Origin: Longitalea arenae
Lineage (GTDB): Bacteria > Bacteroidota > Bacteroidia > Chitinophagales > Chitinophagaceae
Assembly (NCBI RefSeq): GCF_016924755.1
Contig: NZ_JAFFJX010000001.1
Location: forward strand, 930,001 to 994,000
DNA: 64,000 nt
Reading direction: 5' to 3'
Shown here piece after piece: positions 6,212-52,678 of the stretch (within the stretch, counting starts at the first letter, position 1; each line of letters opens with the position of its first letter). The notes under the pieces were generated by a model, which ran no database searches, was not told the origin of the DNA, and saw nothing but the letters and a program-made list of their open reading frames with translations. The position numbers were made by a program, and so were the translations under genes.

Positions 6212-7543
6212 ATGAAATCGTTTATAAGAAATTGGAAGTTCGTGCCTGCGGTTTTAGCGGCAGCAGCTATCTATGCAGGCTGTACGAAAGGACCAGAGAT
6301 CAAATCCTATACATATCCTGCCCCGGAACCAACAGGCATGTTCCCGGAAAGAGGTTACGCAAATTTTGCGGAAGTGACGATCGACGGCTCCAGTTTTGGG
6401 GATTATAAAAATGCGGTAAAGGTTTTTTTCAATGGTATTCCGGCAGATACGGTAAGATCCTGTGCAGACGGCAGAATTGTGGTAAAAGTGCCTGCTAACG
6501 CTATTAGTGGTAAAGTAAGTTTACAGGTATGGAATCACACCGTTGACTCTGTAGGTGCATTCACGGTAGTTCCATATCCCGTCGTAAAAACAGCCAGCAG
6601 GGATATTGGCTTACCCGGTGAAATAGTTGAAATAACAGGAACTGGTTTTGGAACAGACCTGGCAAAAGTAAAAGTTGATTTTAACGGTACCACCGGTACG
6701 ATCACTGAGATCAGCGATACCTTGTTGAAGGTGGCTCTACCCGTAGGATTTTCATCAGGCAATATTAAGGTGGCCGTTAATGACTATCCGGTTGCCGGAC
6801 CCGTAGTAAGAGCCGTTGCTACAGTGCCTGATCCCATTTACTGGCTTTCATTCGAAGGCGACCTGAAGGACAATATGGGCGGCGCCTCCGCAACATATAC
6901 CTATTCCGCAACAGACGGTACCGCCAAACCCATAGCCTGGGCCGCTGGTAAAAAGGGACAAGCCGTAAAACTGGCTGGTAGCGGTAACAGAAAAGCGACC
7001 AATAGCCAGTTCATCGCATGTCCGCCACAGATCAGTAAGTATCCAGAGCTTACGGTAACCGCCTGGGTAAACTGGGGTTCCAAAGATCATCCTGACTCCA
7101 GCTGGTTCCAGGAGCCTATTTTTGATTTTGGCCAGGCGCGGGGTCTTCGTACCGCTTTAATGACCAGGATGCAGGCAAACCAGGGCCCGAATATGGTTGG
7201 CCGCCTGATCTTTGAAAAGATTCCTGAGTTCACTGCCTTCAAAGCTTTCGATGCAAAGGCCGACAAAGAACTCAAGAAGAATGACTGGAGCCACGTGGCC
7301 ATGACAATATCTACTGCAGATCATGTATTGAAAGTTTATATAAACGGCACACTAACAGGTAGCATCGTATTGGATAACGCGGCCAGTCCAACGCTGTTCA
7401 ATCATAATAAAGTCTATATCGGCGCACCCACCAATGGGGTGTTGAACGAACCGGCATTCGGCGGACTGATTGATGAGTTTGAGATCTTCAACCAGGCATT
7501 GAATGCAGACCAGGTATTCGCCAATTATTATAAGAACAGATAG
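6212..7543 (+). CDS. IPT/TIG and LamG-like domain surface lipoprotein (PUL 1)
   Basis: Probable surface glycan-binding protein, occupying the place of SusE/F-type binding proteins. The signal peptide has a lipobox around YAGC, Cys24. Two IPT/TIG immunoglobulin-like folds follow (about 30-115, and about 120-200 with the typical GEIVEITGTGFGTDLAKVKV). The C-terminal half (about 215-443) looks like a concanavalin A/LamG domain: YWLSFEGDLKDNMGG start, LTVTAWVNW strand, WSHVAMTIS and LKVYINGTLTG, ending in GGLIDEFEIFNQALNADQV. IPT-domain lipoproteins placed after susCD usually bind glycan at the cell surface. No catalytic motif is recognised. The lyase gene follows after 39 bases. Confidence 0.85.
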   Translation: MKSFIRNWKFVPAVLAAAAIYAGCTKGPEIKSYTYPAPEPTGMFPERGYANFAEVTIDGSSFGDYKNAVKVFFNGIPADTVRSCADGRIVVKVPANAISGKVSLQVWNHTVDSVGAFTVVPYPVVKTASRDIGLPGEIVEITGTGFGTDLAKVKVDFNGTTGTITEISDTLLKVALPVGFSSGNIKVAVNDYPVAGPVVRAVATVPDPIYWLSFEGDLKDNMGGASATYTYSATDGTAKPIAWAAGKKGQAVKLAGSGNRKATNSQFIACPPQISKYPELTVTAWVNWGSKDHPDSSWFQEPIFDFGQARGLRTALMTRMQANQGPNMVGRLIFEKIPEFTAFKAFDAKADKELKKNDWSHVAMTISTADHVLKVYINGTLTGSIVLDNAASPTLFNHNKVYIGAPTNGVLNEPAFGGLIDEFEIFNQALNADQVFANYYKNR

Positions 7544-7582
7544 TACCAACAATCATCAATTTTGAAAAAGTTCCAACATACT

Positions 7583-8863
7583 ATGAAACGACTTCCTGTT
7601 ATCTCTGTACTTGCGCTGCTGTTGAGTGTATCGATGGTAGATTGCTCTAAAAAAGGCGGCGAAGAATACGACGAATTATACGACACCACGAACATTGTGG
7701 GTTCTGTAAAATACATTGATACATTACCGCCCGGCACTCCGCTGGTGCATCCGGGTGGATTAAATGTGACCGAAGACTTTGCGCGCATCGATGCAGCCAT
7801 AAAAGCAAAAAATGAAACAATACTGGCCGGCCTGGCAAAACTGGAGGCCAATTCGCATGCAGATTCAAATTATAATCCCAACCCGGTTGCCAAACTGATC
7901 CGTGGTGGAAAGAGCCGCGAAGAACCGGAGCCGGATAACTATTCACGCGCTTTTAATGATGTAGCGGCCGCCTATCAATTGGCGCTCCGCTGGAAGATCA
8001 GCGGAAGGGATGGTTATGCGAGGAAATCGATCCAGATCCTCAATGCATGGGCAGCTACCTGCAAGCAATTAAGCGGTGACCCGAACGTGTTCCTTGCAGC
8101 CGGTTTCTATGGTTATCAATTCGCCCTGGCGGGTGAACTGATGCGCGATTATCAAAACTGGGATCCCAAAGATTTTAAAGCCTACCAGGATTGGATGCTG
8201 ACCGTGTTCTATCCCAGGAACCACGATTTCCTCGTGAACCACAACGGTTCCTGCATCGACCACTACTGGGCCAACTGGGACCTGGGCAACATTGCTTCTG
8301 TGATGGCCATCGGTATTCTCACCGACAGGCGCGAATTGTACAATGAAGCAGTGAATTATTTACAGCGCGGCGCCGGGAATGGCAATATCAGAAAGGCGAT
8401 CTATTATGTGCACAAGGAACAGGGGCTGGCGCAGTTGCAGGAAAGCGGCCGTGACCAGGGGCATGCAACACTGGTCATTGCGATGTTGGCTACCATTTGT
8501 GAAATAGCCTGGCACCAGGGCGATGATTTCTATGGCTTCAATGACAATATGTTCCTGAAAGCATCGGAATATAATGCCAAATACAATATAGCTATGGAAG
8601 ATGTTCCGTGGAAGCCATATGACTACAAGGATTGTGATACAACAATCGTGCATAGCCAGATCAGCGAGGCGGAAAGAGGCGAGGTGCGCCCGATATATAC
8701 CATGATCTACAACCACTATGTAAAACGCAAGGGATTAACAGCGCCTTACACCCTTATTGGTGTCAACAGAACTTATCCTGAAGGCGGTGGTGGTGATTAC
8801 GGTCCAAACAGCGGTGGTTTCGACCAGCTTGGTTTTGGCACCTTGTTATATACAAGACCCTGA
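7583..8863 (+). CDS. Alginate-lyase-like polysaccharide lyase, lipoprotein (PUL 1)
   Basis: Predicted (alpha/alpha) toroid lyase of the alginate_lyase superfamily (PL5/PL38-like), which cleaves uronic-acid polymers by beta-elimination. I start at ATG 7583, not the upstream TTG at 7562, because it gives MKRLPVISVLALLLSV and a probable lipid-attached Cys21; the Asp before the Cys makes a weak lipobox. Typical features are NYSRAFNDVAAAYQLALRWKI (about 119-139) and ILNAWAATC. Candidate active-site residues lie in DHYWANWD (about 226-233, including His227, Tyr228 and Asn231) and in ESGRDQGH (287-294, including Arg290 and His294). As the only enzyme in PUL 1 it suggests a uronic acid-containing substrate such as alginate or glucuronan. 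The family placement comes from motif pattern, not from a search. Confidence 0.78.
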   Translation: MKRLPVISVLALLLSVSMVDCSKKGGEEYDELYDTTNIVGSVKYIDTLPPGTPLVHPGGLNVTEDFARIDAAIKAKNETILAGLAKLEANSHADSNYNPNPVAKLIRGGKSREEPEPDNYSRAFNDVAAAYQLALRWKISGRDGYARKSIQILNAWAATCKQLSGDPNVFLAAGFYGYQFALAGELMRDYQNWDPKDFKAYQDWMLTVFYPRNHDFLVNHNGSCIDHYWANWDLGNIASVMAIGILTDRRELYNEAVNYLQRGAGNGNIRKAIYYVHKEQGLAQLQESGRDQGHATLVIAMLATICEIAWHQGDDFYGFNDNMFLKASEYNAKYNIAMEDVPWKPYDYKDCDTTIVHSQISEAERGEVRPIYTMIYNHYVKRKGLTAPYTLIGVNRTYPEGGGGDYGPNSGGFDQLGFGTLLYTRP

Positions 8864-43186: not shown

Positions 43187-43603
43187 GGCTTGCTTGCCCT
43201 AGGACTGAGTTGGGGATTTTAAAGGAGTCCTGGTAAATAGCGGCTCGAAGATTGCGTTCCTGGCCAATAAATTGTTTTATGTAGATAATACGCCTTTGCG
43301 TTAATGCAATTCATAGTATCGGGCTGAAATGAGCTTAAAAAAAGTGAATGTCAGTTTGCAGCGAGCAATGCTCGATTTAAAGCAAAATCTATATCGATAT
43401 AGAACCAGAATGCTTACCCGATCTTGCCGAATTCAATACTTTCCTCCATTCCGCATGCTAAATATTTTCTCTAACGCTGTAGCATGTATGATGTCCCACT
43501 TAAGCAAAAAAGCATGACACCAAAATAGATCTCAACTGTTTGAATTGCTTGCAATTATCTTCGTTAATATACCAGGATGCTGCTGAGTACAAACTCATCG
43601 GTG

Positions 43604-43674
43604 TTCGGGATTTCTTCGGGTCTTCCCTAGGGCAGTACCGGGTTTTCATTGGGATATCCCGAAGAAATCCCGAA
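43604..43674. repeat. 17-bp perfect inverted repeat with 37-base spacer
   Basis: The left arm 43604-43620 (core GGGATTTCTTCGGG) is the exact reverse complement of 43658-43674 (core CCCGAAGAAATCCC). A second overlapping pairing exists: GGGTCTTC (43618-43625) with GAAGACCC (43687-43694). So at least two alternative hairpins are possible. No transposase flanks it. Confidence 0.8.
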
Positions 43675-43812
43675 GCCGTCTTAGCGAAGACCCGGCTAAT
43701 ACCGAAAGCGGGCCCTAAAGTCGCTACGGCCTAAGGCAAAGCAATTAGCCATGGGCAATTGAAGCGGAATTGTACGAAAGGGGTAGCCTCATGGTGTGCA
43801 ATAGTATTGAGA

Positions 43813-43845
43813 TAGCTCTGAAATAGCTCTAAGATTGCTCTAGAG
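43813..43845. repeat. 11-bp-period array A
   Basis: Three in-phase units: TAGCTCTGAAA, TAGCTCTAAGA, TTGCTCTAGAG. Confidence 0.7.
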
Positions 43846-43861
43846 ACCCTAGTGCACAAGG

Positions 43862-43894
43862 CAAGTCCCAGACAAGTCTTAGACAACTCCCTGA
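43862..43894. repeat. 11-bp-period array B
   Basis: Three in-phase units: CAAGTCCCAGA, CAAGTCTTAGA, CAACTCCCTGA. Same period as arrays A and C but unrelated sequence. Confidence 0.7.
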
Positions 43895-44069
43895 ACACAC
43901 TTAGAGCTCTCAACATCAATTCCTGAAGCAGTCTGTACGTACCTGGTACGAAGTCCCAAACCAATTCAACCTGATCCGGTTTGTACTAACAACACATTTG
44001 TTTCATGTTAAGTATTCGAATTAGTATGAGCACTTCATAACTGATTGATTTTATCAACATGGGAGTAAG

Positions 44070-44157
44070 TATGGCTGATGTATGGCTGAAGTACGGCTGA
44101 TGCTGGCTTAATCTATACTGAGTGTGTACTGAGTGTATGCCGGGTCTGTGCTGATCA
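44070..44157. repeat. 11-bp-period array C, ending at the broken YgjP gene
   Basis: Eight in-phase units: TATGGCTGATG, TATGGCTGAAG, TACGGCTGATG, CTGGCTTAATC, TATACTGAGTG, TGTACTGAGTG, TATGCCGGGTC and TGTGCTGATCA. The first three are near-identical; later ones drift. The array merges with the first codons that still resemble the YgjP protease. Confidence 0.75.
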
Positions 44158-44560
44158 GCAAAGAGGGCCGATATATAAAAGGTATTGTTAAAACGAAGGG
44201 GAATCAGAAAAATATAGAACGCCTGGTTATGGATTGGTACAGGCAGGAGGCGAAAAGGGTGTTCTGGGAGCGGTTTGAGCGATATAAATATATATTAAAG
44301 CGGGAAAAATAGCTGTTAATCAGTTACTCGTTCGCCGTCTGGAAAAACGGTGGGGTAGTTGCACTGAATTGGGAAATGTTGTATTGAACTTGTCGCTTAT
44401 TCAAGCGCCGGTACAGTGTATAGATTATGTATTAGTGCATGAACTTTGTCACCTGAAACACCTAAATCATGGCCCTAAGTTTTACAGTATGCTAGCGCGT
44501 TATATGGAGGATTGGGAAAAGAGTAGGGGCCGGTTACAAAAAGTGAAATTATTCGCTTAA
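44151..44560 (+). pseudogene. YgjP-family (DUF45) zinc metallopeptidase, 5'-truncated and frameshifted
   Basis: The first frame reads ...EGRYIKGIVKTKGNQ..IERLVMDWYRQEAKRVFWERF (from about 44160) and stops at TAG 44310-44312. Moving to the next frame at the five-A run 44305-44309 restores the family pattern at once: VRRLEKRWGSCTELGNVVLN, then IDYVLVHELCHLKHLNHGPKF with the zinc motif HELCH at 44438-44452, ending TAA 44558-44560. A one-base deletion in the A-run explains the break. About the first half of the usual roughly 230-residue protein is missing, and array C takes its place. YgjP genes are often neighbours of type I restriction genes, so this may be the remnant of an earlier defence locus beside the present McrBC genes. 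Confidence 0.85.
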
Positions 44561-44782
44561 TTTACGAAGCTGATTGCCAACTCCTACATGTTCCTGCCTG
44601 CTTATTTAAAATACTTGAAATTGATCTGACTCAATAAATTGCAGTCTCGAGGCTATCTCACCTATAATTTTCCAAAGAATTGTTCCAAAAGCTCATAATT
44701 AATTATTTTAGTATAGTGTATGGATCGCCGGTAAACGACTGTACGCTTAAAGCACCATCAAGATAACCCCTAACCGATTAAT

Positions 44783-47164
44783 ATGAGCATCGATAAAATA
44801 TCCAAACAACATGTCTTGCAAGCTGTTGATAAAATTGAACGCGAAGGGATTCAATTAGAGCCATCTACAAAGTATGATGTGATTATTAATGGTAATCTTT
44901 ACCCGCCCAAAGAAGTAATGCGATACGCAAATTTGTTAGCAAATGGAACTAAAGATTGGGAGTTTAGTGGCGGGGAGCCCACAAATAAATTTTTAAGAGC
45001 CTTCGGTTTTGACATTATTGATAAGGGAGGAACGGTTCCTGTTATTCCGATAAATAACGCGATCCCTTTGTCATATCGGGTGTGGAAGTTAGGTTGTAAT
45101 TGGGGTAGGGGTAAACCGAGCTTTTATGATTTAATCAAAGAAAGATCTATTGTTATTGGAGTTAATGATAAATTGTATTCACCGGGTGATTTGATTATAA
45201 TAACCAAAGGTTATACTGTATATGCATTAGGAAAGGTATTGGAAGAGTGCAAACCTGTTACATCTAATATAGACCTGGAGTCTGAATTTGAGGAGTTTGA
45301 AATTGAATATGAAGATTGGGTTGTCTATGCGAAAGTTGAATGGTATGAATTAGAAAGCGAGGAAATATTTACATATCAGTTACAAGTTGGTATCTGTAAT
45401 GTTAATGACTACAAAACTAAATATAGGGCTATTTCAATTTGGGAGGATCGATTTATTAATTATTGGATTTTTCAATGTAATCCCAATGATTTTGATTTTG
45501 AAACGGCTGTTAAAAATAAATTACTTAAGCAGTGGACGGTAGTTGCGCATAAAGACAAGATAAAAATTGGCGATAAAGTAATCCTTTGGCTAACTGGCAA
45601 AAGGGCCGGTTGCTATGCCCTTGCCCGGATTACTTCTGAGCCAACATTTTCAGCAACATCACCTGATGATCGTTTGTGGAAGACAACGCCTAAAGAAGCG
45701 CTTAAGGCTGGTATAGAGCTCATCCATAACCTTATCGATAAGCCTCTTCTTTGGCAAAACATAAAAGGTATTGAAGGATTAGAAGATCTGAATGTGGGGA
45801 ATCAAGGCACCAATTTTTCAGCCACTCGAAAACAATACAACTTACTTCTGCAGCTTATGGAAAATAACACCCAAAATAGCACCGGAAAATTCGATGTCTT
45901 CATCAATACTATATTGTATGGTCCTCCTGGCACAGGCAAGACTCATCAATTAAATAAGTATAAAGAAAACTACTTTACCGATAAAGGGATTAACCAAGAC
46001 GCAGAAGAAGCGCTGAAAGACAAGATAGCCGACTATCCGTTATGGCAGGTAGTTGCAGCTGTTTTACAAAAGTACAAGGAACCCACTTCTGTTACAGAAC
46101 TTTTAAATGATCCTCTTATCAAAGCTAAACTTAATCCATTGGCTAAAGCTCCAAGGCAAGCGATCTGGAGAGTTTTGCAGTCTTATGCTGATGATAGTTC
46201 TACAGAGTTGGAAGCTAAATACAGAGGCTCAATTCAGGTATTTCAAAAGGTAAAAAAAGGTAAATGGGGTATCATTGAGGATGAAAGAGCCGAACTACAG
46301 GATATCATTGGCCAGGAGCTTATCGATCTTGCTGCTAATCCGGTGTTACCACCCATTGAAAGTACTTCACTGAAGAAGCGATATAACTTCATAACCTTTC
46401 ACCAAAAGTATAGCTATGAAGATTTTATAGAAGGAATAAAGCCGCTGTTAAAAGATGATGATGTTGTAGAACAAGCTGGTCAGTTGCAATTCGAGTTGAA
46501 AAAGGGAATATTTTACAATAGTTGTTTGGAAGCTTTAAAGTTAGCGGGATACGAGTCATTTAAAGAATGTTATAATGATTCTAGAGGTAATCGTACATTA
46601 AAGTTTGAAGACGCCAAAGGAAACGCATCAATGCAATTCGCACTATTTATCGACGAAATAAACCGGGCGAATATTTCGGCCGTTTTTGGTGAGTTAATTA
46701 CTTTATTGGAAGATGACAAAAGAATTGGTGCACCAAACGAAATGTGGATTGAACTGCCGGCTTCTAAGGAAAAATTCTGTGTTCCGCCTAACTTATACGT
46801 CATTGGAACAATGAACACTGCCGATCGCTCTATTGCTTTATTAGATATAGCTCTTAGAAGACGATTTGAATTTATATCGCTCTATCCGGAATATATTGAA
46901 TCTGAATGGTGGTCACCTTTATTAGAAAAGTTAAACCTGGCCATTTATAATTGGAAAAAGAATCCTGACTTTTTCATCGGTCATGCCTTTTTCCTTGACA
47001 AGCCAGAAGCAGACCGCACGAAAATCCTAAACACCAGGATCATTCCCTTGTTGTACGAGTATTGCCAAAATAATGTTGGTACGATTACTAAGATATTAAA
47101 TGAAGCGGATATTAAAATAAAATTGGGTGGTATTAAAGAGAACTTTCAAATTGTTGCCCAGTGA
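44783..47164 (+). CDS. mcrB: McrB-like AAA+ restriction GTPase with N-terminal reader domains
   Basis: 793-residue motor subunit of a modification-dependent restriction system. The AAA+ core has Walker A GPPGTGKT (380-387), Walker B LFIDEINRANIS (Asp624, Glu625), the McrB signature MNTADRS (677-683) and the arginine-rich DIALRRRFEF. N-terminal to it are three regions: a small head (about 1-80, INGNLYPPKEVMRYAN...EPTNKFLRAFGF) like the head domain of ScoMcrA-type enzymes; a PUA-like region (about 95-210, SPGDLIIITKGYTVYALGKV); and an EVE-like domain (about 226-345, YWIFQCNP, KIGDKVILWLTG, YALARITSEP). EVE and related PUA folds read modified bases. The stop overlaps the mcrC start (GTGA). Base composition is visibly more AT-rich than the flanking genes, which suggests transfer. 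Confidence 0.9.
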   Translation: MSIDKISKQHVLQAVDKIEREGIQLEPSTKYDVIINGNLYPPKEVMRYANLLANGTKDWEFSGGEPTNKFLRAFGFDIIDKGGTVPVIPINNAIPLSYRVWKLGCNWGRGKPSFYDLIKERSIVIGVNDKLYSPGDLIIITKGYTVYALGKVLEECKPVTSNIDLESEFEEFEIEYEDWVVYAKVEWYELESEEIFTYQLQVGICNVNDYKTKYRAISIWEDRFINYWIFQCNPNDFDFETAVKNKLLKQWTVVAHKDKIKIGDKVILWLTGKRAGCYALARITSEPTFSATSPDDRLWKTTPKEALKAGIELIHNLIDKPLLWQNIKGIEGLEDLNVGNQGTNFSATRKQYNLLLQLMENNTQNSTGKFDVFINTILYGPPGTGKTHQLNKYKENYFTDKGINQDAEEALKDKIADYPLWQVVAAVLQKYKEPTSVTELLNDPLIKAKLNPLAKAPRQAIWRVLQSYADDSSTELEAKYRGSIQVFQKVKKGKWGIIEDERAELQDIIGQELIDLAANPVLPPIESTSLKKRYNFITFHQKYSYEDFIEGIKPLLKDDDVVEQAGQLQFELKKGIFYNSCLEALKLAGYESFKECYNDSRGNRTLKFEDAKGNASMQFALFIDEINRANISAVFGELITLLEDDKRIGAPNEMWIELPASKEKFCVPPNLYVIGTMNTADRSIALLDIALRRRFEFISLYPEYIESEWWSPLLEKLNLAIYNWKKNPDFFIGHAFFLDKPEADRTKILNTRIIPLLYEYCQNNVGTITKILNEADIKIKLGGIKENFQIVAQ

Positions 47165-48477
47165 GATTATTTGAATGGAATAGCAAATCCTTTGAAGGAG
47201 ATAAAAGACAGTTAACTGGATTTATCAATTATCTATCTGGTGTTTGGCAAAATCGAAATCGTTATATTGAATTGAATGAGGAAAATACCGAGGAAGAAGA
47301 ACAAGAAGTAAAAATTCAAGGCCAACGTTTTTTTGATTTCACCATAGATGGGAAGATTTCAGCGAGAAATTTTGTGGGTGTTGTACAATATGAAGGGATA
47401 AGAATTGAAGTATATCCTAAGATATTTGCCAGCGAACAAACGGAAAATGTTAAAAAATGGCAACTCAACTTATTGTATTGGCTTACCTATTGTCGCAAAA
47501 TTAAATTTCCCTTTTCTTTCGCCGATGTGTCTAAGTTGGAGTTTGACGATTATTTGGAACTCCTTATTTACATTTTTGCAAATTATACAGAGGAAGTGAT
47601 TGCACGCCAGCCATTTCAGACGTATCATTTAGTTGAAGAAGAAGCTTCTTTTCTAAAGGGGCGTTTGTTATTTGATGAATATACAAAGCAGCATCTATCT
47701 ACAGGTAACTGGCAAAGCTTTTATTGCGCTCATCAACCGTTTGTTTATGACAATTTATTCAATCGGATCATTAAATATGTTGCAAAAAGGTTGTCGGCAG
47801 TTAGCACCAACCATTTGAATATTGAGAAATTGAATGAATTGTTGTTTCTACTTCATGACGTAGCGGATGTAAGCTGTATTGCAGAGGATTGTGAAAAAGT
47901 GAAATTGAATCCCTTATTTGAAGATCATAAGCAGGTGTTGGAATTATGTAGATTGTATTTATCCAACCAGGTAATAGATATGGATTCAGAGGATAGTAGA
48001 AATTTCTGCTTTCTTATCCCTATGGAGTATATTTTCGAAGAATTCATTTTTGGTTTTATTGATGATAAATGGCCATTGATAAATGCAAAACCCCAAAGTA
48101 TTGGTTACCTGGCTTTGAATGGCGATAGGCAGGTGTTTCAAATTAGAAATGATATCTACATTAACAAGCGGCTGATTATTGACACAAAGTATAAAATTCG
48201 GAAAAATGCAAACGACTTAAAGGCTGGTGTAAGCCAAAATGATTTATACCAGATGGTCAGCTATGCTCTACGAAGAGGCTGCACAAATGTCTTACTGTTG
48301 TATCCAGCTTCGAACAATACCACAAATGAACCCACTATTTTTCAAGTGCCTTCTCGAATGTTATCAGATAATATTAACATACAGGTTTCTGATATTGACA
48401 TAATGTTCGAGAACATTCATCAGGCTGATAACTTAATGGTGAAACGGATAAAAGAATTGAGTCCGATATTTCGATAA
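47161..48477 (+). CDS. mcrC: McrC-like nuclease subunit
   Basis: 438-residue partner of McrB that supplies the endonuclease. It begins at GTG 47161, overlapping the mcrB stop by four bases, the usual arrangement. The N-terminal part has the McrC pattern (FVGVVQYEGIRIEVYPKIF). The C-terminal PD-(D/E)xK nuclease motif is visible: an acidic residue in FQIRNDIYINKR, then IIDTKYK with Asp341 and Lys343, and QNDLYQMVSYALRRG. All expected catalytic positions look intact. With McrB it should cut DNA carrying a modified base or backbone; the actual target cannot be deduced here. Confidence 0.92.
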   Translation: MRLFEWNSKSFEGDKRQLTGFINYLSGVWQNRNRYIELNEENTEEEEQEVKIQGQRFFDFTIDGKISARNFVGVVQYEGIRIEVYPKIFASEQTENVKKWQLNLLYWLTYCRKIKFPFSFADVSKLEFDDYLELLIYIFANYTEEVIARQPFQTYHLVEEEASFLKGRLLFDEYTKQHLSTGNWQSFYCAHQPFVYDNLFNRIIKYVAKRLSAVSTNHLNIEKLNELLFLLHDVADVSCIAEDCEKVKLNPLFEDHKQVLELCRLYLSNQVIDMDSEDSRNFCFLIPMEYIFEEFIFGFIDDKWPLINAKPQSIGYLALNGDRQVFQIRNDIYINKRLIIDTKYKIRKNANDLKAGVSQNDLYQMVSYALRRGCTNVLLLYPASNNTTNEPTIFQVPSRMLSDNINIQVSDIDIMFENIHQADNLMVKRIKELSPIFR

Positions 48478-48832
48478 AACTTGTATAACAGAATAGTCTT
48501 AACTTAAATCGATTTGAACCGAATAAAGCGCCAATTCCGCCGCGACGGTTTTGTCGCTTTACGGCGGGGCCACCTAAATCCCGCCTCACCACCACCCGTT
48601 CCCTTACCGCCCCCAATTACCTCCTAACCAGCCGCTAAGTTTCACTGGTGGGGATAAATACAACGAAACCTATCCCACGCAATAAAACATCATACTCAGA
48701 AGTGCCGAATTCAAGACCGCTTACAATAACAGCCCAACGTTTCCCCCATATTTCCCGATTTCGTAACCCCAGTACGCGCTGACTGGCACGGTTTTGCGTG
48801 TCCCTTCGACCTAACTACTTTTTGAAGAAACT
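48478..48832. other. Gene-free interval after mcrC
   Basis: 355 bases with no supported gene. One stem-loop is visible at 48537-48567 (CCGCCG with CGGCGG outside, GCGAC with GTCGC inside), without a T-run directly behind it; it may terminate mcrBC weakly. Confidence 0.5.
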
Positions 48833-50527
48833 ATGAAACGCACTATCTACTCTTTTTTCGTTCTGTTACTTGTTGCAACATCATTGTTTAGTTACGCGAC
48901 CGACTACTATGTTGATCCTTCTTCCAGCGGTAAAAACCTGGGCACCTACAACGATCCCTGGCACAACATTCGCGACATTCCATGGTCTGTTAACTATTTT
49001 CAACCGGGCGATGTCGTTTACTTCCGGCGAGGGCAACAATACTGGGGCACCTTGTCAATCAATAGCAGCGGCAGGGAAGGGGCGCCCATAACGTTCATGC
49101 CCTATGGTGAGGGCGCGGCTCCTCTCTTTAAGTACAGCCCCTGGGACTTTACCGAGCCATTGGTCCAAAACCGCGTGTTTATCAGGCTGAATCAATGTAA
49201 TTACATCGTTATCGATGGTTTTGAACTTACCGATCATTCCATCCGCGATTATGATCGCTACACCTCCGCCAACGTGGGCTATGGTATCTATATTTATAAA
49301 GGTCACGGTAATGGCGGCTCGCATAATGTCATTAAAAATTGCACCATCTCGCGATTAGGTGCAGGGGTCAATATCGACGGCGGCAGCTTCAATACCGTCA
49401 CCAATTGCTCGATCCGCAACCTGCGCATGATCATCAATACTTCCTATCAAATGTGGGACGATTTCGGCGCAGTGGGCATCGTAGTCGGCGGGTCTAACAA
49501 TTCCATCACACACAATCAGATTCACGACTGTTGGAGCAACAGCTACGATTATAAGCTCGACGGGGGCGCTATTGAAATGTTCGGTGAGGTGTCCAACAAC
49601 AAAATATTGTACAACACCGCCAGCGACAACATCGGCTTTATGGAATTCGGCAGCGGTTGGGGGGCTCATGCGTTCAATAACCTGGTTGGCTATAACCTGC
49701 TTGTGAACAACGGGCATGTATTCTGGATCAACTCCAGCAGCGTCTTTCACCAGGACGTTCGTAACCTGCAGTTTGTCAATAATAATGTCGTTGAAACAAA
49801 AGCGCCGCGGCTGCCTGATGTGCATAACCTCATCGGTATTATGTCTACGCCATGGGTACCGAATGTGCTTACCATGAAGAATAATATTTTCTGGATCAAC
49901 ACGTCTTCCAATATCACCGATCCGACGACGAAACCTTTTAACGGCCCGCAGTTGATCCATCAGAGCAATATCTTTCATCTGAATGGCGGCAGCCTTGGCT
50001 ACGATCCGGATTATTCCGAACAAAAACTTCCCAACGATGTAGAGGTGTTTGCCAATAGTTATTCATCCGATCCGCTTACCTGGAACTATGATCTGCGGCC
50101 AACTGCTGCTGCCGTCAACTGGGGTCAATGGACCGGGATAGAAAAAGACTTCTGGGGTAAGCCGGTGCCGCAGAGCGGTGTTCCTGATGCGGGTATTTCC
50201 GAGAGCCATTCAAACATCACCCCCGCCCGCGTATCCATCGCTTCAACCGGTCCGGTTATTGTTGAGAACCGCGAGCAGACGGGCGCCCTCACCGTTTCGC
50301 CCAACCCCGCACAGGATCATATCTACCTGAAATTGCCGGGCAATAACTTCCTGAACAAGGAGGTATTACTCGTGAATATGGCCGGCGCAGTGCTCCAAAA
50401 GCAACGGCTAAACGATGCGGGCGGCCAGGTAAAGCTGAACGTTAGCATGTTGCCCCGCGGTACTTTTGCGGTCAAGCTGATCGACACCAAAACCGGTCAG
50501 TCGCAAAGCACTTCATTTATAAAATAG
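48833..50527 (+). CDS. Type IX-secreted right-handed parallel beta-helix protein, copy 1
   Basis: 564 residues: signal peptide (TIYSFFVLLLVATSLFSYA), a long region of PbH1-type coils (for example NYIVIDGFELTDHSIRDYD, HNVIKNCTISRLGAGVNIDG, NTVTNCSIRNLRMI, NNKILYNTASDNIGFMEFG), and a C-terminal Por_Secre_tail domain (VSPNPAQDHIYLKL... to the end), the signal for export and surface attachment or release by the type IX system. The beta-helix fold is typical of pectate-lyase-like carbohydrate enzymes, but I cannot assign a CAZy family. It is a paralogue of the next gene and lies back to back with the pectin PUL, so a plant-wall polysaccharide target is likely but unproven. Confidence 0.85.
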   Translation: MKRTIYSFFVLLLVATSLFSYATDYYVDPSSSGKNLGTYNDPWHNIRDIPWSVNYFQPGDVVYFRRGQQYWGTLSINSSGREGAPITFMPYGEGAAPLFKYSPWDFTEPLVQNRVFIRLNQCNYIVIDGFELTDHSIRDYDRYTSANVGYGIYIYKGHGNGGSHNVIKNCTISRLGAGVNIDGGSFNTVTNCSIRNLRMIINTSYQMWDDFGAVGIVVGGSNNSITHNQIHDCWSNSYDYKLDGGAIEMFGEVSNNKILYNTASDNIGFMEFGSGWGAHAFNNLVGYNLLVNNGHVFWINSSSVFHQDVRNLQFVNNNVVETKAPRLPDVHNLIGIMSTPWVPNVLTMKNNIFWINTSSNITDPTTKPFNGPQLIHQSNIFHLNGGSLGYDPDYSEQKLPNDVEVFANSYSSDPLTWNYDLRPTAAAVNWGQWTGIEKDFWGKPVPQSGVPDAGISESHSNITPARVSIASTGPVIVENREQTGALTVSPNPAQDHIYLKLPGNNFLNKEVLLVNMAGAVLQKQRLNDAGGQVKLNVSMLPRGTFAVKLIDTKTGQSQSTSFIK

Positions 50528-50561
50528 ATGAGCGGCATACTGCCTTTCATTAATAAACAAG

Positions 50562-50589
50562 ACCGCCTTTGGCGGTTTTGTCGTTTTTA
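50562..50589 (+). terminator. Intrinsic terminator between the two beta-helix genes
   Basis: ACCGCC (50562-50567) pairs with GGCGGT (50571-50576) around a TTT loop, followed by TTTGTCGTTTTT. Copy 1 therefore ends separately from copy 2. Confidence 0.75.
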
Positions 50590-50764
50590 TGCTATGCCAG
50601 ATCATTATCCACAATCTATTTGAACTCCTAAGCATTCCCCCTCCAAGCCCGCTAAGTAGTTTCGTGTATTGAAGACATTTAACGTTATCGATCATTCCCA
50701 ATGGCATAATTTTTTCGACCCTCTCACTACGCAATTAAGCGCCTGATTTAATCATACATACTCT

Positions 50765-52678
50765 ATGAAAAACGTGAGAGTCCAATTGCTCATGCTGCTC
50801 CTCATTGCAGCTTCTTTTTCCGTGTCCGGCAAAGCCTATTTCGTAGATCCCTCCTCCTGGGGATCCAACCAGGGAACCTGGTTTGACCCCTGGAAGTCTA
50901 TCTGGGATATCCCCCAAAACGTTGGTTATTTTCAGCCGGGTGATTCTATCTTCTTCAAAAGCGGTCACGAGTACATGGGTACCTTATCTATCAATAGCAG
51001 TGGCCGCGAAGGCGCACCCATCGTTTTAATGCCTTACGGCGAAGGAAAAACACCGGTCTTTAAATACAATGCCGGGCACTTTACCGATCCCATGATCTAC
51101 AACCGCGTCATGATCCGCCTCAACCAATGTAATTACATTGTTATCGATGGTTTCGAACTAACCGACTATACCATCCGTGACTACGATCGTTACTCCTCTG
51201 CTAATGTGGGTTACGGGGTGTATATCTACAAAGGCTCGCATAATATTGTGAAGAATTGTAAGGTATCGCGCCTGGGCTCGGGTGTTTGTATCGACGGTGG
51301 CAGCTATAACACCGTTACTCATTGCGACATCCGCAACCTGCGCATGATCATCAATACACCTAATGATCCCTGGGACGACTTCGGCGCCATGGGCATCATG
51401 GTCGGCGGCTCCCATAATAACATTACCTATAACCAGATCCACGATTGCTGGGCCAACAGTTACGACTATAAGATCGATGGCGGCGCTGTTGAAATGTATG
51501 GTCCCGTTTGTAACAACCGGATCCTGTACAATACCTGCAGCGAAAACCTCGGTTTCATGGAGTTTGGCAGCGGCTCGGGTGGGCAGGCACTCAATAATGT
51601 CGTGGGCTACAATCTGCTCGTGAATAACGGCCATATATTCTGGATCAATTCCAGCAGTATCTATAGCCTCGATGTGCGGAACCTGCAGTTCCTCAACAAC
51701 AATATCGTTGAAACGCATGCGCCGCGCATCCCGGAGGTGAGGAACCTCATCGGCATCATGAATACGCCCACCGTTGCAAATGTGCTTACCATGAAGAACA
51801 ATATCTTCTGGCTTACCACGGGTCAAAATATCACGGATCCGCATTGGCAGCCTTTTAATGGCCCGCAGTTGATCCACCAGAACAATCTGTTCCACCTCAG
51901 CGGCGGCAGCCTCGGCTATCCTATGGATTGGTCTGAACAAATGCTTTCTGCCGGTGCATCACCTTTCACTGATATCAGTTCTTATGATCCCCTTTCCTGG
52001 AATTATGACCTGCGGCCCTGGTCCGTCGCCGTGAATTTTGGTCAATACATCGGTATCGATAAAGACTTCTTCGGTAAATCCGTTCCCTTAAGCGGCGCTC
52101 CGGATGTTGGCATTGCTGAGAACATACTTGGTGCGCAACACCTGGAAATTGTATCCACCCGGGCCTATGAAGCTGCTGACGGAAATGTCGTTGAGTGGGA
52201 AACCAATAACGAATCGGCGAATCATTTTGAGCTCCAGAAAAGCACCGACGGCAAGGCCTTTACTACCGTTGCCACCATTCCCAACAAAACGGATGCAGTT
52301 GCTGCGCTTAAATTCCATTTTACCGATAATGCGAAAAAGGGCAACGTCTTCTATTACCGGGTGAAAGCGGTGGAAAGGGACAAAAAAGAATTGTATTCTA
52401 AAGTAGTTACTATCAAAAACAACCAGCCGGCCGGCAGCCTCAGCGTTTTCCCCAATCCCGCACAGGATCATGTGTACCTGAAATTGCCAGGATTCGATTT
52501 TCTAAATAAAGAGATCCAGATCGTTAATATGGCCGGTGTTGTATTGAAAAAGCAGGTGCTGAATGAGGCCGGCAGCCAGGTCAAACTCGACATCAGCAGC
52601 CTGCCCAAAGGCGCATTTGCTATAAAAATGATCGATAGTAAAACCGGTCAAAGCCAAAGCTCACTGTTTACAAAATAG
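50765..52678 (+). CDS. Type IX-secreted right-handed parallel beta-helix protein, copy 2, with extra Fn3-like domain
   Basis: 637 residues. The signal peptide is NVRVQLLMLLLIAASFSVSG, and the beta-helix region closely matches copy 1 along its length (IVIDGFELTDYTIRDYDRYS, GGAVEMYGPVCNNRILYN, LGFMEFGSGSGGQALNNVVG). After the helix it has an insertion of about 85 residues absent from copy 1 (about 460-550: VVEWETNNESANHFELQKST..., FYYRVKAVERDKKELYS), a fibronectin-III-like fold often seen before type IX tails. The final sorting domain again matches copy 1 very closely (NPAQDHVYLKLPG, SQVKLDISSLPKGAFAIKMI). The pair is a tandem duplication with gain or loss of one domain. Confidence 0.85.
   Translation: MKNVRVQLLMLLLIAASFSVSGKAYFVDPSSWGSNQGTWFDPWKSIWDIPQNVGYFQPGDSIFFKSGHEYMGTLSINSSGREGAPIVLMPYGEGKTPVFKYNAGHFTDPMIYNRVMIRLNQCNYIVIDGFELTDYTIRDYDRYSSANVGYGVYIYKGSHNIVKNCKVSRLGSGVCIDGGSYNTVTHCDIRNLRMIINTPNDPWDDFGAMGIMVGGSHNNITYNQIHDCWANSYDYKIDGGAVEMYGPVCNNRILYNTCSENLGFMEFGSGSGGQALNNVVGYNLLVNNGHIFWINSSSIYSLDVRNLQFLNNNIVETHAPRIPEVRNLIGIMNTPTVANVLTMKNNIFWLTTGQNITDPHWQPFNGPQLIHQNNLFHLSGGSLGYPMDWSEQMLSAGASPFTDISSYDPLSWNYDLRPWSVAVNFGQYIGIDKDFFGKSVPLSGAPDVGIAENILGAQHLEIVSTRAYEAADGNVVEWETNNESANHFELQKSTDGKAFTTVATIPNKTDAVAALKFHFTDNAKKGNVFYYRVKAVERDKKELYSKVVTIKNNQPAGSLSVFPNPAQDHVYLKLPGFDFLNKEIQIVNMAGVVLKKQVLNEAGSQVKLDISSLPKGAFAIKMIDSKTGQSQSSLFTK

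Follow-up and report, generated by a model that had tools for sequence, protein, structure and literature searches.

A predicted Type IV McrBC system of Longitalea arenae with two EVE-like barrels ahead of the McrB GTPase

The locus and described McrBC systems

McrBC of Escherichia coli K-12 restricts DNA that contains N4-methylcytosine (4mC), 5-methylcytosine (5mC) or 5-hydroxymethylcytosine (5hmC). Here we analyze a McrBC pair encoded in a 64,000-nucleotide stretch of the Longitalea arenae genome (Bacteroidota, Chitinophagaceae; positions 930,001 to 994,000 of contig NZ_JAFFJX010000001.1), hereinafter the window, which has the GTPase motifs, the McrC subunit and the operon organization in common with the E. 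coli system. Instead of the single DUF3578/ADAM domain of E. coli McrB (PMC11090510), the McrB of the window possesses a head and two barrels, and its GTPase contains an insert. On the basis of sequence comparison and structure modeling, we consider this locus, with a probability of about 0.65, to encode a restriction system of the McrBC kind that depends on modification (Type IV) and has two EVE-like readers. The layout represents a real, recurrent and apparently uncharacterized variant of such systems.

Fusions of EVE with McrB have been reported in nearly 300 genera, are abundant in Firmicutes and Bacteroidetes and often carry additional domains (Bell et al., 2020, PMC7641849). The window protein resembles these fusions in that an EVE module is joined to the McrB GTPase, but it also has a head and a second barrel, of the kind found at residues 98-222, that are not named in the part of that account consulted. 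The McrB of Thermococcus gammatolerans, a YTH-McrB that binds N6-methyladenine (6mA; PMC7641849), likewise carries a PUA-superfamily reader on McrB, but only one. The EVE domain is also shared with VcaM4I (EVE-HNH), where it serves as a base-flipping reader; unlike the window system, this enzyme combines its one reader with an HNH nuclease and has no motor (PMC7897488). HHPV4I (PUA/SRA-winged helix-HNH) is a Type IV enzyme that likewise combines two domains of the sensor type, but these are a PUA-type domain and a winged helix attached to an HNH nuclease, and the PUA-type domain appears to be silent, with no detectable sensing beside the sensing winged helix (PMC10101028, PMC11037411). The CoCoNuT McrBC systems belong to the same McrB superfamily, in which insertions into the GTPase domain are reported to be frequent and are likely specificity domains (Bell et al., PMC11090510); they differ in having an NxD motif and coiled coils, and the search for NxD in the window McrB found none, the corresponding MNTAD being NxxD (PMC11090510). 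In the literature searched, some of it available in part, there was no account of a head/PUA/EVE tandem on McrB and no characterized relative with this layout; EVE-McrB fusions as such are common and published.

The McrBC pair and the sensor arm

The features of the pair are as follows (residue numbers refer to McrB except in the last line).

44783..47164, plus strand: McrB-type GTPase with N-terminal sensor arm, 793 amino acids
44783..45028, plus strand: head, residues 1-82; in the model a helix, two strands, two helices and a strand
45074..45448, plus strand: first PUA-superfamily barrel (EVE/YTH-like), residues 98-222; from the model and a profile match to EVE
45458..45829, plus strand: EVE domain, residues 226-349; PF01878, E 3.5e-12
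45920..45943, plus strand: Walker A motif GPPGTGKT, residues 380-387
45983..46372, plus strand: insert within the GTPase, residues 401-530; low-confidence fold of helices followed by two strands
46373..47161, plus strand: remaining AAA+ GTPase core with Walker B (623-628), MNTAD (677-683) and ALRRRF (690-695)
47161..48477, plus strand: McrC nuclease subunit, 438 amino acids, with D331...D341-T-K343; PF10117 and motif

Both frames are intact; mcrB runs from an ATG at 44783 to the stop at 47164, and mcrC, which starts with a GTG at 47161, overlaps it by 4 bases. The McrB start (MSID...) agrees with those of five relatives (L055, L057, L058, L080 and L083; L numbers denote loci), the longest McrB frame of L056 begins further upstream, and the McrC start agrees with those of L055 and L056. 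All motifs of a Type IV McrB (Walker A, DEINR, NTAD) are present, namely GPPGTGKT, preceded by 379 residues, IDEINR (623-628), MNTADRS (677-683) and ALRRRF (690-695). Pfam recognizes AAA_5 in McrB and PF10117 in McrC (E 4.4e-66); the latter contains a PD-(D/E)xK-type motif, with both acidic positions and the lysine conserved in 16 of 16 aligned McrC sequences. The top matches of the GTPase among PDB sequences are GTPase subunits of the McrB type, 6ut3 (E 9e-48), which we take to be T. gammatolerans McrB, and 6hz4, presumably E. coli McrB.

The only domain identified by Pfam in the arm is EVE at 226-349 (47 bits against a cut-off of 23). The head and residues 95-222 have no credible match in Pfam, NCBIfam, PHROGs or PDB sequences (best E about 0.1); in Pfam, the head shows no match up to E 10 and residues 98-222 no match to PF01878 above the cut-off. 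The AlphaFold2 model of residues 1-365, built from 23 rows (mean predicted local distance difference test score, pLDDT, 83; predicted template modeling score, pTM, 0.62), consists of three bodies, with a linker at 83-92 for which pLDDT is below 50. The first barrel, modeled with pLDDT 90-96 over 101-190 and 78-87 over 191-220, shows the PUA-type order of strand, helix, three strands, helix, strands and helix. The same order of elements is seen in the EVE barrel (pLDDT 58-91), although its second strand is modeled with just two residues. Comparison of the profile of the first barrel (25 rows) with that of EVE (32 rows) produced a score of 37.0 (83% probability), with 17.0 or less for 100 column shuffles, 13.8 for the reversed EVE profile, 13.1 for the head and 11.5 for the insert. 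In the Foldseek comparison of the arm with the PDB (best E 2.7e-07), the best 50 of 319 matches include structural-genomics proteins, among them 2eve, and THYN1, followed by YTH domains; in the viral models, 4 of 302 matches reach E 0.001 or better, one being an EVE protein, which is not decisive. Eight residues of the first barrel (K102, L103, G104, W107, D136, G143, L190 and G203) are invariant in 23 of 23 aligned rows.

The structure model, the EVE profile match of residues 98-222 and the natural splits among relatives (see below) thus support a predicted arm in which a head is followed by two distinct barrels of the PUA superfamily. The initial annotation had posited a McrBC pair with complete GTPase motifs, an arm made up of a head, a PUA-like and an EVE-like region, and two distinct PUA-like modules, rather than one domain, across 95-345, and all of this is in agreement with the present results. 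Its three-part division holds too, except that the first barrel ends at about 222, not 210; the AAA+ core was correctly recognized but its insert was overlooked. A second barrel-like segment noticed by eye in L114 had no Pfam match or profile support and was not used.

The insert comprises about 130 residues (401-530) between Walker A and FITFHQ and is poorly modeled (mean pLDDT 50). It has no Pfam match above the cut-off (best E 0.044), and a winged-helix (HARE-HTH) fold is at most a candidate for it. Among PDB sequences, a match to 3ism_C (E 0.0015) covers 69 residues; matches to ubiquitin were rejected, as they stem from chains with repeats in which no one stretch is significant by itself. 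A 5-row insert profile finds matches in 6 of 295 class genomes, including that of the window, and in four of the six the matched proteins are more distant McrBs.

Domain layouts of the relatives

The scan of genome contigs resulted in 24 loci (L075-L098), the layouts of which were assigned by BLAST with the window modules. Head, PUA, EVE and GTPase form a single frame in four of these (L075, L076, L077 and L079, the first two being near copies), and two more (L080 and L083) have the full layout, except that head and PUA are separated by about 160 additional residues. The layout is interrupted by a contig end in L084, and the sensor and the GTPase are encoded by two neighboring genes in L082. 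An extra segment of this size between head and PUA is found in all four of L080, L082, L083 and L084; that of L080 has no Pfam match. PUA, EVE and GTPase without a detected head are present in three loci (L081, L086 and L095) and in L078, where the 5' end is cut and the GTPase lies in two frames. L085 encodes head, PUA and GTPase without an EVE detectable by either BLAST or Pfam, but with the same motor, insert and McrC as in the window, and in two loci (L092 and L094; partly also L097) the PUA runs directly into the GTPase. Among the rest, head and PUA are located on another protein in four loci (L087-L090), L091 and L093 encode proteins of equal size in which the head is not matched significantly, one locus (L096) carries the PUA on GmrSD, and the match in L098 is trivial. 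Two additional relatives, L055 and L056, have the full layout. Altogether, 14 McrB loci, including the window, have both barrels on or beside McrB, a count that leaves out L084 and includes L082 with its sensor as an adjacent gene. The layout recurs in Bacteroidota, at times beside Type I restriction genes.

Pfam detects EVE in L055, L056, L079, L080, L082, L086 and L095. Furthermore, EVE is found on McrB without a PUA match in L074, L102, L103, L104 and L105 (by Pfam in the three scanned). These proteins contain long stretches without an assigned domain, so a single barrel is not proven for L074, L102 and L103.

Outside McrB, the head and PUA occur on proteins of 690-697 amino acids (L087-L090 and L059), followed in L087-L089 by a gene for about 280 amino acids. 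The protein of L087, identical to that of L059, contains an AAA_15/AAA_21 ATPase domain (Pfam), and this group possibly represents a separate defense system. In L096 (1093-2844), the PUA module is joined to GmrSD_N and DUF7834 (Pfam), and L062 (6135-6548) encodes, amid genes for Type I restriction, a stand-alone PUA protein of 137 amino acids. The head is also seen ahead of MrcB_N-McrB proteins (L067, L068 and L071) and is present on small HNH proteins (L073 and the Sphingobium plasmid L146, annotated as HNH endonuclease).

The pairing of PUA and EVE spans two motor clades, between which McrC is about 35% alike. In the EVE tree (18 rows), the motor clade of the window is held together at 100/98; in the PUA tree (20 rows) it is held weakly, at 80/83 and in 75% of 200 bootstrap trees (LG+G4 without mixture in both cases). 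Given that the EVE tree is firm and the PUA tree weak but not contradictory, the readers seem to have traveled with their motors. Swapping of reader cassettes between motor lineages, an idea that arose because the window PUA is closer to that of L075 (61% identity) than to its counterparts within the same motor clade (51-57%), is not supported by these trees. Across the motor clade to which the window McrB belongs (7 loci; 6 in the case of EVE), identity averages 81% for the AAA core, 76% for the head, 74% for EVE, 62% for PUA and 56% for the insert; the faster change of PUA and insert is as expected of target-facing parts.

Genome counts (one or more matches with E no higher than 0.001; the window's genome is included and the samples overlap) are 13 of 195 family genomes and 31 of 298 order genomes for the arm (1-365) and 17 of 395 phylum genomes for head plus PUA (1-225), many of these being matches to one module only, and 10 of 395 class genomes for PUA alone. 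Six plasmid records each match just part of the arm, and none of the six pattern stretches in viral contigs was confirmed as a relative.

Functional interpretation

The assignment to Type IV McrBC is suggested by the intact motifs, PF10117 and AAA_5, the McrB-type PDB matches, EVE and the EVE-like first barrel. It is also consistent with the presence of PUA joined to GmrSD (L096) and as the sole module ahead of McrB (L092 and L094), with EVE on McrBs lacking a PUA match (L074, L102 and L105), with the 14 paired loci in two motor clades, and with the absence of a methyltransferase among the six flanking genes scanned, two of which have no family match. Several observations weigh against it. The link between the first barrel and EVE spans just 51 columns and depends on profile depth, falling to 25% (local) or 3% (global) with 12 EVE rows and to 26% against 19 housekeeping EVE rows alone; the EVE- and YTH-type Foldseek matches are not attributed to either barrel. 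Some relatives look damaged, with the GTPase of L078 in two frames and a McrC frame of 124 amino acids in L077. Pfam finds no EVE in L075, although BLAST finds one 65% identical to that of the window, and this result, together with the weak PUA-tree support, slightly lowered our confidence.

As a Type IV system, McrB would assemble into a GTP-driven hexamer carrying McrC, with each barrel flipping one base out of the DNA into its pocket. Once foreign DNA carrying altered bases is bound, GTP hydrolysis and translocation would start, and McrC would then cut the DNA. Most likely, the pair of barrels broadens recognition or makes it more precise, whether by covering two types of mark or a single mark in two contexts, and the system does not strictly depend on both.

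A possible alternative is that one barrel alone senses the mark and the other plays a structural part or binds DNA non-specifically. HHPV4I provides a precedent, which implies that a PUA-type domain may be silent, and L085 has the same motor without EVE; however, L092 and L094 use PUA without EVE, both barrels are retained together in 14 loci, and eight residues of the first barrel are invariant. More doubtful is a true coincidence reader, in which McrC would cut only once both barrels are occupied, by two marks or by one mark present on each strand. The pairing across two distant motor clades, the EVE tree that firmly follows the motor clade (the PUA tree does so weakly) and the requirement of E. 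coli McrBC for two separated modified sites (PMC1459862) are compatible with this possibility, but L085, L092 and L094, which use PUA without EVE, argue against a strict or general two-mark rule. The suggestion of the initial annotation that two marks could be required, or one mark read on each strand, is conjectural for the window protein, and a two-mark requirement does not stand as a general rule. A broader version appears slightly less probable still: the PUA-pair McrBs, perhaps with the insert as a third, winged-helix-like module that binds DNA, would respond only to the coincidence of two different marks or to one mark in a set arrangement, and residues 98-222 would represent an unnamed reader family common to McrB, GmrSD, ATPase and Type I systems.

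It is improbable that the system recognizes an unmodified sequence and is paired with methyltransferases, as in the case of LlaJI, which resembles McrBC and cleaves DNA that lacks methylation (PMC1459862). The location of L080 and L083 behind Type I genes and of an N6 methyltransferase in the gene run of L057 would fit such a role, but no methyltransferase was found among the six flanking genes scanned, two of which match no family, and the arm contains an EVE domain and an EVE-like barrel. The least probable option is that the system targets RNA or serves another cellular task, given that, although RNA is a ligand of YTH domains and the predicted target of CoCoNuT McrBs (PMC11037411, PMC11090510), the window McrB has NTAD (NxxD) rather than the CoCoNuT NxD (PMC11090510) and McrC retains its nuclease motif.

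Transfer and genomic context

At the matching place in a genome of the same genus, positions 43555-48722 of the window are replaced by about 750 bp, with flanks 84-88% identical (75% across the last 300 bases on the left). Among 10 genomes of the genus, this McrB is found only in that of the window, one genome has a distant GTPase match and eight have none. The G+C content of third codon positions (GC3) is 0.34 in both mcrB and mcrC compared to 0.46-0.61 in five flanking genes, in line with the AT-richness relative to the neighbors noted in the initial annotation. Recent transfer, which it inferred from composition, is likely, considering the absence from the matching place and the odd GC3; the single genome comparison fits either gain or loss, and composition favors gain.

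Just upstream of mcrB, on the plus strand (44166..44557), what is left of a gene for a YgjP-like metallopeptidase lies in two out-of-frame pieces (44166-44309 and 44297-44557). The first matches PF01863 at E 3.9e-4, short of the curated cut-off, and the second at E 4.5e-30. YgjP-like metallopeptidases are frequent members of Type I operons. These remains may be a relic of arrival with a Type I restriction operon. Among the relatives, L080 follows genes for the N6 methylase and the S and R subunits, and L083 follows that for the R subunit (Pfam); the R- and S-like genes upstream of L055 have starts near-identical, by eye, to those of L080. A link between McrBC and Type I systems is already published (PMC11090510). 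In L083, a Piwi-domain protein (6669-8729; 686 amino acids) is encoded directly downstream of the McrBC. Positions 48833-52678 of the window encode two adjacent similar proteins with Por_Secre_tail (564 and 637 amino acids), apparently duplicates judging by their cross-matches.

Implications

The novelty is modest: a reader-like module invisible to Pfam and common to several proteins, and a recurrent tandem for which the literature search found no description. The module at residues 98-222 is found on McrB, on GmrSD and on ATPases, and by itself as the product of a gene in a Type I operon. Against phages whose bases are altered, Type IV enzymes are one of the main defenses, and the readers of these enzymes are turned into tools with which such bases are mapped; a motor that naturally carries either one barrel (L085) or both (the window and L055) bears directly on what a second reader may add.

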